From the NCBI GenBank assembly GCA_947479815.1, contig CANKAT010000025.1, positions 1 to 36,940 on the forward strand: a DNA stretch of 36,940 bases, written 5' to 3'. Made by a program: the position numbers and the translations under genes. The notes under the pieces were generated by a model. It was not told where the DNA came from, searched no databases, and saw nothing but the letters and a program-made list of their open reading frames with translations. How positions within the stretch are numbered: the stretch's first letter is position 1; every line of letters starts with the position of its first letter. Shown piece after piece: positions 1 through 35,672 of this stretch. This stretch comes from Sphingobacteriaceae bacterium (GTDB taxonomy: Bacteria > Bacteroidota > Bacteroidia > Sphingobacteriales > Sphingobacteriaceae).

Positions 1-53
1 CTGTTGTCTGAAGTATAAAAAAAGGAGAAAATTTCAATTAGCACTAAAAAGTC

Positions 54-228
54 TTTGTTCTTTGCTCCTGGTTCTTGGTTCTTGGTTCTTGGTTCTGTTG
101 TCTGTTATCTGTTGTCTGAGGTCTGAGGTCTGAGGTATGAGGTATGAGGTCTGAGATGAAGCAGAATCTATCTCAATACTCAATACTCACTACTCACTAC
201 TCAATACTCACTACTCATATCTAATTAG
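54..228. repeat. Degenerate heptanucleotide tandem array 1
   Basis: About 25 consecutive 7-bp units run in one unbroken register. The unit word changes in blocks: TTGGTTC (54-95, with variants), TGTTGTC (96-116), TGAGGTC/TGAGGTA (117-158), two off-consensus heptads (159-172), then TCAATAC/TCACTAC (173-221). Most units start with T and end with C. The last heptad (222-228) overlaps the stop codon of the M14 peptidase gene at 221-223. Two more heptads (TGTTGTC, TGAAGTA) occupy 2-15 in another phase, so the array may continue beyond the window. Confidence 0.9.
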
Positions 229-32036: not shown

Positions 32037-33167
32037 ATGACTATTGGCATCTTACGCGAACCGACTACAGAATCTAGGGTCTCTTTAATTCCCGAGCACA
32101 TTGCGGCACTCAAAAAACAAAATATTCATGTATTGGCAGAGCATAATTGTGGTAACCATGCTTATGCATCCGACTTATTATATACAGAGCAGGGTGCTGA
32201 GTTATGCTCCCGAGAAAATGTATTAAAGAATTCTGATATTCTGCTCAGTATAAATCTCCTTACAACAGAGGATTTAAAAAATTTAAAGAAGAATGCAGTT
32301 GTTTTAGGTGTTTATAATCCACTTTCAAATTTTGCATTAATTAATGATTGGGCTTCTAAGGGTTTAACAACATTTAGTATGGATATGCTTCCCCGTACAA
32401 CCAGGGCTCAGAGCATGGATATTCTTAGTTCCCAGGCAAATATTGCAGGTTATAAGGCAGTATTACTAGCTGCTATGCAGTTGCCAAAATATTTCCCAAT
32501 GTTCATGACCGCTGCCGGAAGTATTGCACCAGCAAAAGTTATGATATTAGGAGCAGGTGTAGCAGGGCTTCAGGCTATTGCAACTGCTAAGAGATTAGGA
32601 GCCGTAGTGGAAGTATTTGATACTAGACCTGCTGTAAAAGAAGAAGTAATGAGTTTGGGTGCTAAATTTATTGAAGTTGAAGGAGCTCTCGATGCCTCAA
32701 AAGCAGGAGGTTATGCTGTAGATCAAACTGAAGACTACAAGCAAAAACAACAGCAGCGAATTGCTGAAGTTGCTTCAAAAGCTGATGTGATTATTACAAC
32801 GGCCCAAATACCTGGTAAGAAAGCACCAATTCTTTTACCTGACAGTATTCTGGATTCAATGAAAAATGGGTCTTTGATTATTGATCTTGCTTCTGCTACT
32901 GGTGGGAACACTACACAAACTAAAGACAATGAAACTATAGTTTATAAAAATGTAACCATTATAGGTAATTCAAATCTTCAGGGTACGATGCCCTCAGATG
33001 CAAGTAAGCTCTATGGAAAGAATATTCTGAATTTTCTTCAATTAATCTTTGGAGCTGAGGGGCAGATCAATCTTAATTTTGAAGATGATTTAGTAAAGGG
33101 AACTTGTATTACATATAATGGTGAGGTTTGTAATGCTAGGGTGAAGGAAGTTTTAAGTAGTAAGTAA
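32037..33167 (+). CDS. pntAA: NAD(P) transhydrogenase subunit alpha, part 1
   Basis: NAD(H)-binding soluble subunit of proton-translocating transhydrogenase, 376 residues. The N-terminal alanine-dehydrogenase/PNT region opens with GILREPTTESRVSLIPEHIA, and the Rossmann motif is GAGVAGLQAIATAKRLGA with VFDTRPAVKEEV after it. The membrane part present in the E. coli alpha chain is missing and is encoded separately by the next gene, as in three-subunit transhydrogenases. The last codons (Ser-Ser-Lys-stop, from 33155) lie inside heptad array 2, so the C-terminus is written by the repeat. First gene of the operon; no good -7 element was found upstream. Confidence 0.94.
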   Translation: MTIGILREPTTESRVSLIPEHIAALKKQNIHVLAEHNCGNHAYASDLLYTEQGAELCSRENVLKNSDILLSINLLTTEDLKNLKKNAVVLGVYNPLSNFALINDWASKGLTTFSMDMLPRTTRAQSMDILSSQANIAGYKAVLLAAMQLPKYFPMFMTAAGSIAPAKVMILGAGVAGLQAIATAKRLGAVVEVFDTRPAVKEEVMSLGAKFIEVEGALDASKAGGYAVDQTEDYKQKQQQRIAEVASKADVIITTAQIPGKKAPILLPDSILDSMKNGSLIIDLASATGGNTTQTKDNETIVYKNVTIIGNSNLQGTMPSDASKLYGKNILNFLQLIFGAEGQINLNFEDDLVKGTCITYNGEVCNARVKEVLSSK

Positions 33168-33300
33168 TAAGTTGTAAGTAATAAGTTGTAAGTAATAAGT
33201 AATAAGTAATAAGTAGTAAGTAATAAGTAATAAGTTTTAGGTAATTCGTAATTCGTAATTCGTAATTAGTTTTCGTAATTCGTAATTCGTAATTAGTTTT
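33155..33300. repeat. Degenerate heptanucleotide tandem array 2
   Basis: Twenty-one units. AAGTAAT with AAGTAGT, AAGTTGT and AAGTTTT variants fill 33155-33238, AGGTAAT (33239-33245) forms a bridge, and TCGTAAT with TAGTTTT continues to 33300. One 6-base unit (33267-33272) is the only slip in the register. The array begins inside the coding end of pntAA, supplies its stop codon (33165-33167), and fills nearly all of the 167-base spacer to pntAB. It is expected to be transcribed within the operon mRNA. Confidence 0.92.
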
Positions 33301-33334
33301 ATTAATAAAAGTTCAATCAACAACCAACATATAT

Positions 33335-33701: not shown

Positions 33702-35108
33702 ATGGAATTAAATATACTAATCATTTGTTACCTGATCGGGTCTGTAACCTTTATTATCGGATTAAAGATGTTAAGTCATCCGGAAAGTGCCAGAAAAGGA
33801 AACCTTATCGCAGCAGCTGGAATGGCTATATCTATTCTGGGGACCATTTTTCTATATGAAGAACAAGGTATAAAACTTGGGAATTACATCTGGATTTTCG
33901 CAGCATTGATTATTGGTACTGTTTTAGGGACTATCGCTGCAAAAAAGGTTAAGATGACCGCTATGCCAGAAATGGTTAGTTTATTTAACGGAATGGGTGG
34001 TGCCTGTGCTGCGTTAATTTCAATAGTAGAATTCGATCATCTTAATCATCAAATTCAGTTGGGTGGAGCAGTTAACAGTGGAACGCTCTTGATCATTTTT
34101 GCTGGATTGATCATTGGAACAATTTCATTTGCCGGTAGTATGGTGGCCTGGGCAAAACTGAATGGAAGAATTAAGGATTTTGCATTCAATGGTCAGCATA
34201 TTATGAACCTTGTTATTTTTGCTGTGATTATCTGTCTTTCAGCTTATCTGATCATTTCAGGTGATCCTGCAGCAGGATCCTTGTTCTATTTGGTTTTTGT
34301 ATTGTCAATTATTTACGGATTATTCTTTGTATTGCCTATCGGTGGTGCAGACATGCCGGTTGTTATTTCATTGTTAAATTCATTTACAGGTGTTGCAGCA
34401 GCCTTTGGTGGATTTTTGTATGATAATCCTGTAATGCTTACAGGTGGTATATTAGTGGGTTCGGCCGGTACAATCTTAACTATACTGATGTGTAAAGCAA
34501 TGAACCGACCATTGAGTAATGTTTTGATTGGCTCATTTGGTGGTTCTTCAACTGGGTCTGCAAGTAAAGATCAGGGTGCCTATAAAGAGATAAGTATTAG
34601 TGATTCTGCAGTTGTAATGAGTTATGCAAAAAAGGTTATGATCGTTCCTGGATATGGTTTAGCCGTTGCTCAGGCTCAGCACGTATGCCATGAACTTGAA
34701 AAATTACTTTCCGATAAAGGTGTTGAAGTAAATTATGCGATCCATCCAGTTGCAGGCCGTATGCCTGGACATATGAATGTACTTCTTGCAGAAGCAGATG
34801 TAGATTATGCCAGATTATTGGAAATGGAACTCGCAAATGAAGAATTTCCTCAAACAGATGTTGTTTTGGTTCTTGGAGCAAATGATGTGGTGAATCCTGC
34901 TGCCAAAACAGATCCCGGATCTCCAATTTATGGAATGCCAGTTCTTGATGTGGAATTGTCTAAGTTGGTAATTATTAATAAAAGGAGTATGAATCCCGGT
35001 TATGCTGGTATTGAAAATGAGCTCTTTTTCCAACCTAAATCTTCCATGTTATTTGGAGATGCGAAATCAGTACTTCAAAAATTAGTAGCAGAAATTAAAA
35101 CACTCTAA
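33702..35108 (+). CDS. pntB: NAD(P) transhydrogenase subunit beta
   Basis: NADP(H)-binding and membrane subunit, 468 residues. About nine hydrophobic segments fill residues 1-275 (e.g. MVSLFNGMGGACAALIS), followed by the soluble NADP domain: VPGYGLAVAQAQH, AIHPVAGRMPGHMNVLLAEA, VLVLGANDVVNPAAK and the KRSMNPGYAGIENELF segment that closes over NADP. Uses the proton gradient to make NADPH from NADH. Third gene of the pnt operon. Its stop codon TAA (35106-35108) overlaps the first unit of heptad array 3. Confidence 0.96.
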   Translation: MELNILIICYLIGSVTFIIGLKMLSHPESARKGNLIAAAGMAISILGTIFLYEEQGIKLGNYIWIFAALIIGTVLGTIAAKKVKMTAMPEMVSLFNGMGGACAALISIVEFDHLNHQIQLGGAVNSGTLLIIFAGLIIGTISFAGSMVAWAKLNGRIKDFAFNGQHIMNLVIFAVIICLSAYLIISGDPAAGSLFYLVFVLSIIYGLFFVLPIGGADMPVVISLLNSFTGVAAAFGGFLYDNPVMLTGGILVGSAGTILTILMCKAMNRPLSNVLIGSFGGSSTGSASKDQGAYKEISISDSAVVMSYAKKVMIVPGYGLAVAQAQHVCHELEKLLSDKGVEVNYAIHPVAGRMPGHMNVLLAEADVDYARLLEMELANEEFPQTDVVLVLGANDVVNPAAKTDPGSPIYGMPVLDVELSKLVIINKRSMNPGYAGIENELFFQPKSSMLFGDAKSVLQKLVAEIKTL

Positions 35109-35191
35109 TTAAGGTGAAAGGTTAAAGCTGAAAGGTTAAAGCCTAAATCTAAAAGGGTAAAGCTGAAAGCCTATAGTTCAAAAGGATAAAG
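35107..35191. repeat. Degenerate heptanucleotide tandem array 3
   Basis: About twelve units with consensus (G/C)T(T/G)AAAG: GTGAAAG, GTTAAAG, CTGAAAG, GGTAAAG and variants CCTAAAT, CTAAAAG, CCTATAG. One unit (35177-35184) is 8 bases long. The first unit, AATTAAG (35107-35113), overlaps the pntB stop codon. The remainder of the gap to the RNase P gene holds only a possible terminator hairpin. Confidence 0.85.
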
Positions 35192-35286: not shown

Positions 35287-35300
35287 AAAAAAAAGCAAGC
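35287..35300 (-). terminator. Terminator tract of the RNase P RNA gene
   Basis: On the minus strand the last RNase P bases GCTTGCT run into eight T (complement of 35287-35294). The P1 stem formed with the 5' end of the RNA acts as the stem before the T tract. Confidence 0.6.
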
Positions 35301-35669
35301 CTGTAAGCCGGGTTCTGTTTCCCGATAAATCGGAAATTCTATCATTTATCTAGTCATACAATTGCTTGTATGATCTAACGACCTACCCATTCCGGATAAT
35401 GTCACATCAGCGACATAAGGAAACGAGCAGCTTCGCTTCCGGAACCTATTTGGTCTTTCAACTCCTGGGGTTTACCGCACTTTATGTCACCATAAAATAC
35501 CGTGAGCTCTTACCTCACATTTTCACCTTTACCCGCCTAGGCGGGAAGTTTATTTTCTGTGGCACTATCCGTCTCCATTTTCATGAAGCCTTCCTGTTAG
35601 GAAGCAGAATGCTCTGTGTTGCCCGGACTTTCCTCCTTGATTTGCATCACGGCGATAGAACAGCTTGCT
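35294..35669 (-). ncRNA. rnpB: RNase P RNA, bacterial class A
   Basis: Catalytic RNA that trims the 5' leader of tRNA precursors. On the minus strand it starts about AAGCAAGCTGTTC (from 35669) and contains the universal GAGGAAAGTCCGGGC block (complement of 35621-35635), the 5' half of helix P4. Near the other end is ACAGAACCCGGCTTA (complement of 35304-35318), and the terminal GCTTGCT pairs with the 5' AGCAAGC to close P1. Length is about 376 bases, as expected for class A. A -7 promoter word sits 4 bases upstream of the 5' end. Ends are good to a few bases. Confidence 0.95.
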
Positions 35670-35672
35670 TTT

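Follow-up and report, generated by a model that had tools for sequence, protein, structure and literature searches.

The heptad array at the left end of the DNA studied here is, with a probability of roughly two in three, one copy of a clade-specific, dispersed composite satellite, which consists of a 37-bp core and four ordered kinds of heptad and is often tandem and intergenic. The element looks like a bacterial counterpart of satellite DNA. Its blocks recur in one order at dispersed sites, its heptads stay in register, sister genomes differ in the number of units and of heptads, and the cores within a site resemble one another more than they do those of other sites. Five ordered heptad words at dozens of sites in two sisters provide a readable record of repeat origin, expansion and homogenization, and the ordered element allows the 7-nt step to be measured. 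The window, that is the whole stretch of DNA analysed, is the entire contig C25 (36,940 bp) of genome G000, the assembly of which comprises 3.2 Mb in 157 contigs. Hence, the array stands at a contig end, where it adjoins the 3' end of a gene of the M14 zinc-carboxypeptidase family.

Composition of the array and of the repeated unit

The initial annotation of this DNA reported a 7-bp register that runs unbroken from base 54, and this is borne out. Identity at lag 7 over positions 54-221 is 121/161 (0.752), compared with only 0.37 for the best lag between 1 and 28 that is not a multiple of 7, and it lies above all of 2,000 dinucleotide shuffles, in which the best of lags 3-21 never exceeded 0.422. 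Tandem Repeats Finder (TRF) divides the region into three sub-arrays, 52-96, 114-155 and 172-217. The array contains five heptad word classes and two cores in a fixed order (Table 1), and thus departs from the single word of a heptameric SSR, although it shares the other features of that class, namely an exact 7-bp unit that is over-represented relative to other periods and a mostly intergenic location.

Several details of the initial annotation have to be revised. The first run, given as four to six copies of TTGGTTC, holds only three proper copies and one CTGGTTC, and the first two heptads form a separate TTTGNTC block. What were counted as two off-consensus heptads are actually three, and together they make up a second, non-heptadic core (B-core). 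The register is indeed kept across this spacer (152-172), but its continuity there is probably not meaningful, as the length of the B-core spacer varies elsewhere and is one base shorter at locus L225. The last block, which had appeared unrelated to its neighbours, is an ATACTCA expansion that follows the second, likewise dispersed core; in the window its words run TCAATAC (twice), TCACTAC (twice), TCAATAC, TCACTAC and TCATATC, and it ends beside the stop codon of the M14-family gene. The short fragment at the left end (1-16) is real and lies out of phase with the array, as described, because the 38 bases (16-53) from its last full heptad to base 54 are not a multiple of 7.

Table 1. Positions of the array components, of other features in the window and of two further repeat types at other loci
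Feature	Sequence	Position	Strand	Basis or remark
Tail of preceding composite unit	one NGTTRTC heptad, then TGAAGTAT	1-16	+	same order before cores elsewhere
A-core, 37 bp	consensus GAAAAAAGCAGAAAATTTCAATTAGCACTAAACAGTC	17-53	+	nhmmer matches, alignment, core model
Block a	TTTGNTC x2 (TTTGTTC, TTTGCTC)	54-67	+	
Block b	[CT]TGGTTC x4 (CTGGTTC, TTGGTTC x3)	68-95	+	
Block c	TGTTRTC x3 (TGTTGTC, TGTTATC, TGTTGTC)	96-116	+	
Block e	TGAGGT[CA] x5 (TGAGGTC x2, TGAGGTA x2, TGAGGTC)	117-151	+	
B-core, 21 bases, not heptadic	TGAGATG AAGCAGA ATCTATC; contains GATGAAGCAGAATCTATC	152-172	+	dispersed
Block f	TCAATAC/TCACTAC x6 and a partial copy	173-217	+	ATACTCA in another phase
M14 zinc-carboxypeptidase-family gene		221-1414	minus	ORF; PF00246, E 1.2e-14
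Second heptad array	TAAGTAN, then TTCGTAA words	33148-33306		between two transhydrogenase subunit genes
RNase P RNA, bacterial class A		35288-35671	minus	RF00010, 266 bits
Candidate second series	TAAGTNN/TAGGTNN, then AAAGGGG/AAAGCTN words	L149:14178-14364; L187:12690-12834; L144:9053-9161; L172:7133-7351		two tandem copies at L172
Palindrome	CCCGATAGCTATCGGG	L151:166 and 341; L168:9938; L315 about 116-133; others		

Bases 1-60 of the window match many other places. The A-core gave 33 nhmmer matches in an initial set of loci, including the window and its duplicate L001. The heptad blocks known from the window also come after the A-cores elsewhere, usually in unchanged order, and many loci have units arranged head to tail. 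Block order was scored per locus at 57 core loci of two sister genomes, G000 and G008, with the window left out; the heptad word classes were chosen after inspection of the sequences, the order asymmetry was not. Block a (TTTGNTC) is followed by b (TTGGNTC) at 52 loci, b by c (NGTTRTC) at 39 with the reverse at one, and c by e (TGARGYN) at 48. Backward steps against the satellite order are found from b to a (7 loci) and from e to c (6 loci). The reverse was never seen for e to A-core (27 loci), A-core to a (30), e to f (ATACTCA, after the second core; 14), f to c (9), a to c (2) or b to e (1). Counted per transition and with the window included, core to b occurs 8 times and c to core 3 times. 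Across loci, blocks a and b comprise 1-4 copies and blocks c and e from 1 to 15. To the initial annotation, neighbouring blocks at the start of the array looked like stepwise mutants of one another. Since the same blocks occur in the same order at most of the 57 other core loci, the order is instead inherited within a larger repeat unit.

The B-core is likewise dispersed, with 14 matches in the G000 sample (the window's included) and 22 in the G008 sample, some of them weak. Core-to-core spacings (n=56) range from 88 to 294 bp and are unevenly distributed relative to the heptad step: 23 leave a remainder of 3 on division by 7 (corrected p 6e-6), 16 a remainder of 4, 10 a remainder of 2 and 7 some other value. 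A CRISPR array was rejected on the basis of these intervals, which are mostly filled by heptads rather than by unique spacers of similar length.

Distribution and turnover in related genomes

That the array is larger to the left, as the initial annotation suspected, is very probable. Window base 1 is a contig end, and the end of a second contig of G000, C138, carries a further core with blocks a, b and c that contain the window's private variants (GGAG in the core; TTTGTTC, TTTGCTC and CTGGTTC at the start). The C138 unit (sequence L315) has three rather than four b words and other c words, and so it is a different unit from that of the window. By comparison with G008 we infer that C25 and C138 join: the neighbouring gene beyond the array in G008 encodes a nucleoside-recognition 'Gate' domain (PF07670), and its G000 counterpart lies on C138. 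Between the same gene pair, G008 has f words, the second core, and e and c words. At the window's own site G008 has the B-core and no A-core.

The corresponding site in a third genome, G016 (92% identical; L003, past the M14 gene), contains TTAGTTG-type words and not this element. The initial annotation had suggested that relatives lacking 7-bp periodicity would point to chance decay of ordinary sequence. Contrary to that case, the sister keeps the periodicity at the window's site with other block numbers, but G016 has other words. Relatives differ from one another by whole heptads and by larger blocks, a point on which the initial annotation was right. The initial observation is confirmed and its interpretation is partly supported.

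With matches accepted at E up to 0.01, a core model (R1) detects at least 74 copies in G000, at least 55 in G008 and at least 21 in G016. The 28 other relatives yield 0-3 matches each among the candidates scored, which numbered at most 150 per genome, so that all these counts are lower bounds. A less sensitive scan of 198 genomes of the class, with 28 candidates scored per genome, returned G000 and two weak single matches among those candidates. G017, which is 69% identical at the M14 gene, has one core with c-type heptads before it and a-like and b heptads after it, so that the unit probably predates its amplification.

The comparison of G000 with G008 covers ten element sites, each with its two flanks on a single G008 sequence, and does not include the site of the window. 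Nine keep the core, and at seven of these nine the number of cores differs between the sisters, by up to one versus five, within an overall range of 1 to 6 cores per locus. The tenth site (L271 in G000, L217 in G008) has other heptads in G008, and no clean empty site was present in the sample compared. Cores show mixed orientations with respect to genes. In aligned orthologous intergenic regions (236 of 772 in G000, of which 22 have arrays in both genomes and 2 in G000 only), gaps of at least 4 nt are multiples of 7 in 32/84 cases within arrays versus 44/297 elsewhere. The majority of array gaps (52/84) do not fit the 7-nt step, and the ambiguity of aligning such arrays may be the reason. Base substitution is 9.1% inside and 9.2% outside arrays. 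Mean core identity is 0.919 within a site, 0.885 between orthologous sites (a value that includes pairs of non-corresponding units) and 0.83 between other sites, and 1,000 label permutations per genome never exceeded 0.884 for the within-site value. This likeness within sites is as local amplification and homogenization would give, and it indicates no extra constraint on the core. G000 and G008, being sisters, are not independent samples.

Element loci lie between convergent genes in 21/41 cases and between divergent genes in 3/41, after 17/58 loci without one flanking gene were dropped. The background in intergenic regions of at least 100 bp is 53/378 and 37/219 for convergent and 148/597 for divergent pairs. 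This convergent excess suggests tolerance away from promoters. Short assemblies seem to break off at the element, window base 1 being an example, so that copy numbers, and unit numbers at contig ends, are minima. In G000 a number of core copies stand no more than about 150 bases from where a contig stops (C25, C26, C52, C82, C87, C138, C148 and others).

The heptad step and a strand rule at gene edges

Seven is by far the favoured short period in these genomes. A lag-by-lag scan using one score threshold for all periods found 56 lag-7 segments in 1.237 Mb of G000 and 49 in 0.797 Mb of G008, mostly outside called genes (52/56 and 43/49, respectively). The other lags from 2 to 13 gave three segments at lag 8 and one at lag 10 in G000 and one at lag 11 in G008. 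Between 14 and 30, lags that are not multiples of 7 gave 0-5 segments each in G000, and the multiples follow as expected. Sequence from other genomes, nearly all of them labelled as Bacteroidota (80 loci, 0.92 Mb), gave four segments at lag 7 and one at lag 8 among lags 2-13. The heptad bias therefore looks common to the Bacteroidota samples, with G000 about ten times richer. We know of no established cause for a near-exclusive 7-nt step. PMC4679880 and PMC4692102 cite a 2007 report of excess heptamers in bacterial DNA, and one survey states that it sees no clear clue to the function of this excess (PMC6344855). A 2025 survey of short tandem repeats describes Bacteroidota as rich in them, and the portion of it available held nothing on heptads that we could find (PMC12699852).

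The orientation of heptad arrays follows a strand rule. From 105 arrays, 75 lie outside genes and have an absolute G skew of at least 0.3. A gene edge is no more than 60 bp away for 50 of the 75, and the remaining 25 stand at a greater distance. The G-rich strand is the coding strand in 30/31 skewed arrays at 3' edges and the template strand in 19/19 at 5' edges, or 49/50 overall. Seven of the 50 are near A-cores and all seven conform, which leaves 42/43 without them. Edges without arrays are split 60:55 at 3' ends, and at 5' ends the template outnumbers the coding strand by 151 to 55, indicating that the 3' part of the rule is array-specific and the 5' part is partly general. When arrays with both flanking genes known are scored by intergenic half, 55/67 conform, including 48/55 away from A-cores; among those near A-cores 7/12 conform, which amounts to no strand rule (2:3 and 2:5). 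Beyond G000, G008 and G016, seven of nine distinct edge arrays conform (L096, L106, L107, L108, L111, L112 and L114) and two do not (L101, and L104, which touches genes on both sides), at loci that had been selected with a TGAG pattern, which makes the sample not a blind one. Stop codons in all three frames are present on the G strand of 69 of the 75 arrays and on the C strand of 39, and ATG on the G strand of 28 and the C strand of 2, so that one simple cause is that false starts ahead of genes are avoided. The strictness of the rule hints at selection or a directional process, which plain neutrality does not predict, and the rule makes the question of the function of heptad arrays directly testable. 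The rule now extends to Bacteroidota, having been described, in the sections of the report available, for other words in Xanthomonas and Nostoc (PMC4692102).

The strand rule, the conforming edge arrays near A-cores and the enrichment between convergent genes are what would be expected of a functional intergenic RNA or DNA element under selection, such as a 3'-end hairpin, a terminator or a protein-binding array in which the words are binding or pairing units. We consider this unlikely for the composite element. An imperfect hairpin with heptad arms can form from the window array, but this fold is no better than those of shuffles (z -0.74, 47/200 as good) and RNAalifold gives 0 pairs in the core alignment, and the hairpin was accordingly rejected as the functional unit. 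Orthologous cores (88.5% identical) are no more conserved than non-heptad intergenic DNA, core number and core strand vary as described above, and the strand rule is lost near A-cores when arrays are scored by intergenic half. At the gathering score, no Rfam family matches the array, the sole match in the window being RNase P RNA. Neither folding nor core conservation supports a function of the sequence, and the element is probably without a sequence-specific one.

Origin of the element and comparison with known repeats

Dispersal, restriction to a clade and the large number of core matches in one genome are also features of non-autonomous mobile elements (MITE- or REPIN-like) that depend on a transposase supplied in trans. 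This origin is less likely again, as 9/10 comparable sites are common to the sister genome, nothing in G000 matches PF01797, the family of REP-type Y1 transposases, while 18/21 genomes searched have such a match, and a 22-base core pattern has no exact match in virus contigs. RAYT/REP mobility and a phage origin were rejected on the latter two grounds, and no recent transposition was seen. Independent expansion at each locus, from a favoured vocabulary and 7-nt slippage and with no common ancestry of the composite, fits the preference for heptads here and in other Bacteroidota samples and the 46 distinct doubled heptad words of the G000 sample, several of which are one substitution apart, but is very improbable, since the same 37-bp core and the same fixed order of blocks, found at dozens of loci, require a common ancestor.

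For the composite satellite, we propose that a multi-heptad unit with its core arose in the genus and was then amplified in the clade of G000, G008 and G016. Heptad blocks would expand and contract by slippage in 7-nt steps, and whole units would be gained, lost and homogenized by unequal recombination or gene conversion between repeated blocks, processes that we infer from two genomes and did not observe. The fixed order would derive from an amplified ancestral multi-heptad unit, as in eukaryotic higher-order repeats, and the spread to dozens of sites might, as a guess, reflect ectopic conversion seeded by pre-existing heptad arrays. The element is probably neutral or weakly selfish DNA that is tolerated mainly away from promoters.

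Eukaryotic alpha-satellite higher-order repeats consist of diverged monomers, with a multi-monomer block that is amplified, keeps its monomer order and is homogenized within a locus. The element described here resembles them in that diverged monomers follow a set order inside a larger repeat unit and in that copies are more alike within a locus than between loci. It differs in having 7-bp monomers at dozens of short loci in a bacterium, unlike the monomers of about 171 bp at centromeres. Cyanobacteria contain degenerate 7-bp repeats (STRR), as in the Nostoc tRNA-Leu intron, which are similar in kind, although to our knowledge no ordered series of words is known among them.

The closest parallels among reported heptads, as far as the available text of each source goes, are the intergenic GGGAATC and GGGGA(C/T)T repeats of Xanthomonas and Nostoc (Rehm et al. 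2015, PMC4692102). These share the 7-bp unit, the intergenic location mostly between the same gene pairs, the variation in length between close relatives, and the strand pattern, with the coding strand just past stop codons and the non-coding strand just before starts. For these, that study follows one kind of word per genus, whereas the present element has many words, a conserved core and an ordered larger unit, and the words of the window array lack the runs of three or more G of GGGAATC-type repeats. TAACTGA direct repeats are present in Beggiatoaceae, Cyanobacteria and some Bacteroidetes, two of which have other heptamers in the same intergenic region as well (MacGregor 2015, PMC4679880). 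They too are 7-bp direct repeats in intergenic DNA, and TAACTGA-type words (canonical AACTGAT) are common in G000. However, in the main genome of that study they consist of one word, mostly in short sets that stand immediately before start codons, and no ordered composite was found in the part of the report available. BrickBuilt of Porphyromonas gingivalis, a minisatellite within a MITE, is another dispersed intergenic tandem repeat of the Bacteroidota with conserved non-repeat parts, but, as described in the accessible text, it has a 23-nt unit, a single word and small inverted-repeat ends, in contrast to the several heptad words here (PMC4596501).

We found no bacterial heptad unit composed of several ordered words and a core in the literature, of which few subscription journals were covered. 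On this weak evidence the ordered composite is new; the heptad excess, and the strand rule in Xanthomonas and Nostoc, were already known. It is conceivable, though on balance doubtful, that bacteria carry true higher-order-repeat satellites under a hard 7-nt step and that heptad arrays in unrelated phyla obey one geometric law, with the G-rich strand beginning at the edge of the gene and directed away from the gene, so that bacterial intergenic DNA would be shaped by one undiscovered process, of copying or of selection, that advances in strides of 7 nt.

Other repeats were noted alongside the element. The second heptad array of the window starts within the last codons of the first of two transhydrogenase subunit genes (PF01262/PF05222 and PF12769) in one apparent operon, and degenerate AAAGCTG/AAGGTTA heptads (35111-35170) lie immediately past the stop codon of the gene at 33702-35108. 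An apparent second ordered series is a candidate at four loci (Table 1). The palindrome CCCGATAGCTATCGGG occurs, in exact copies, 22 times in the 1.41 Mb sampled from G000 and 11 times in the sample from G008, never within called genes and in many cases beside or inside heptad-like DNA, and is possibly a separate small mobile palindrome.
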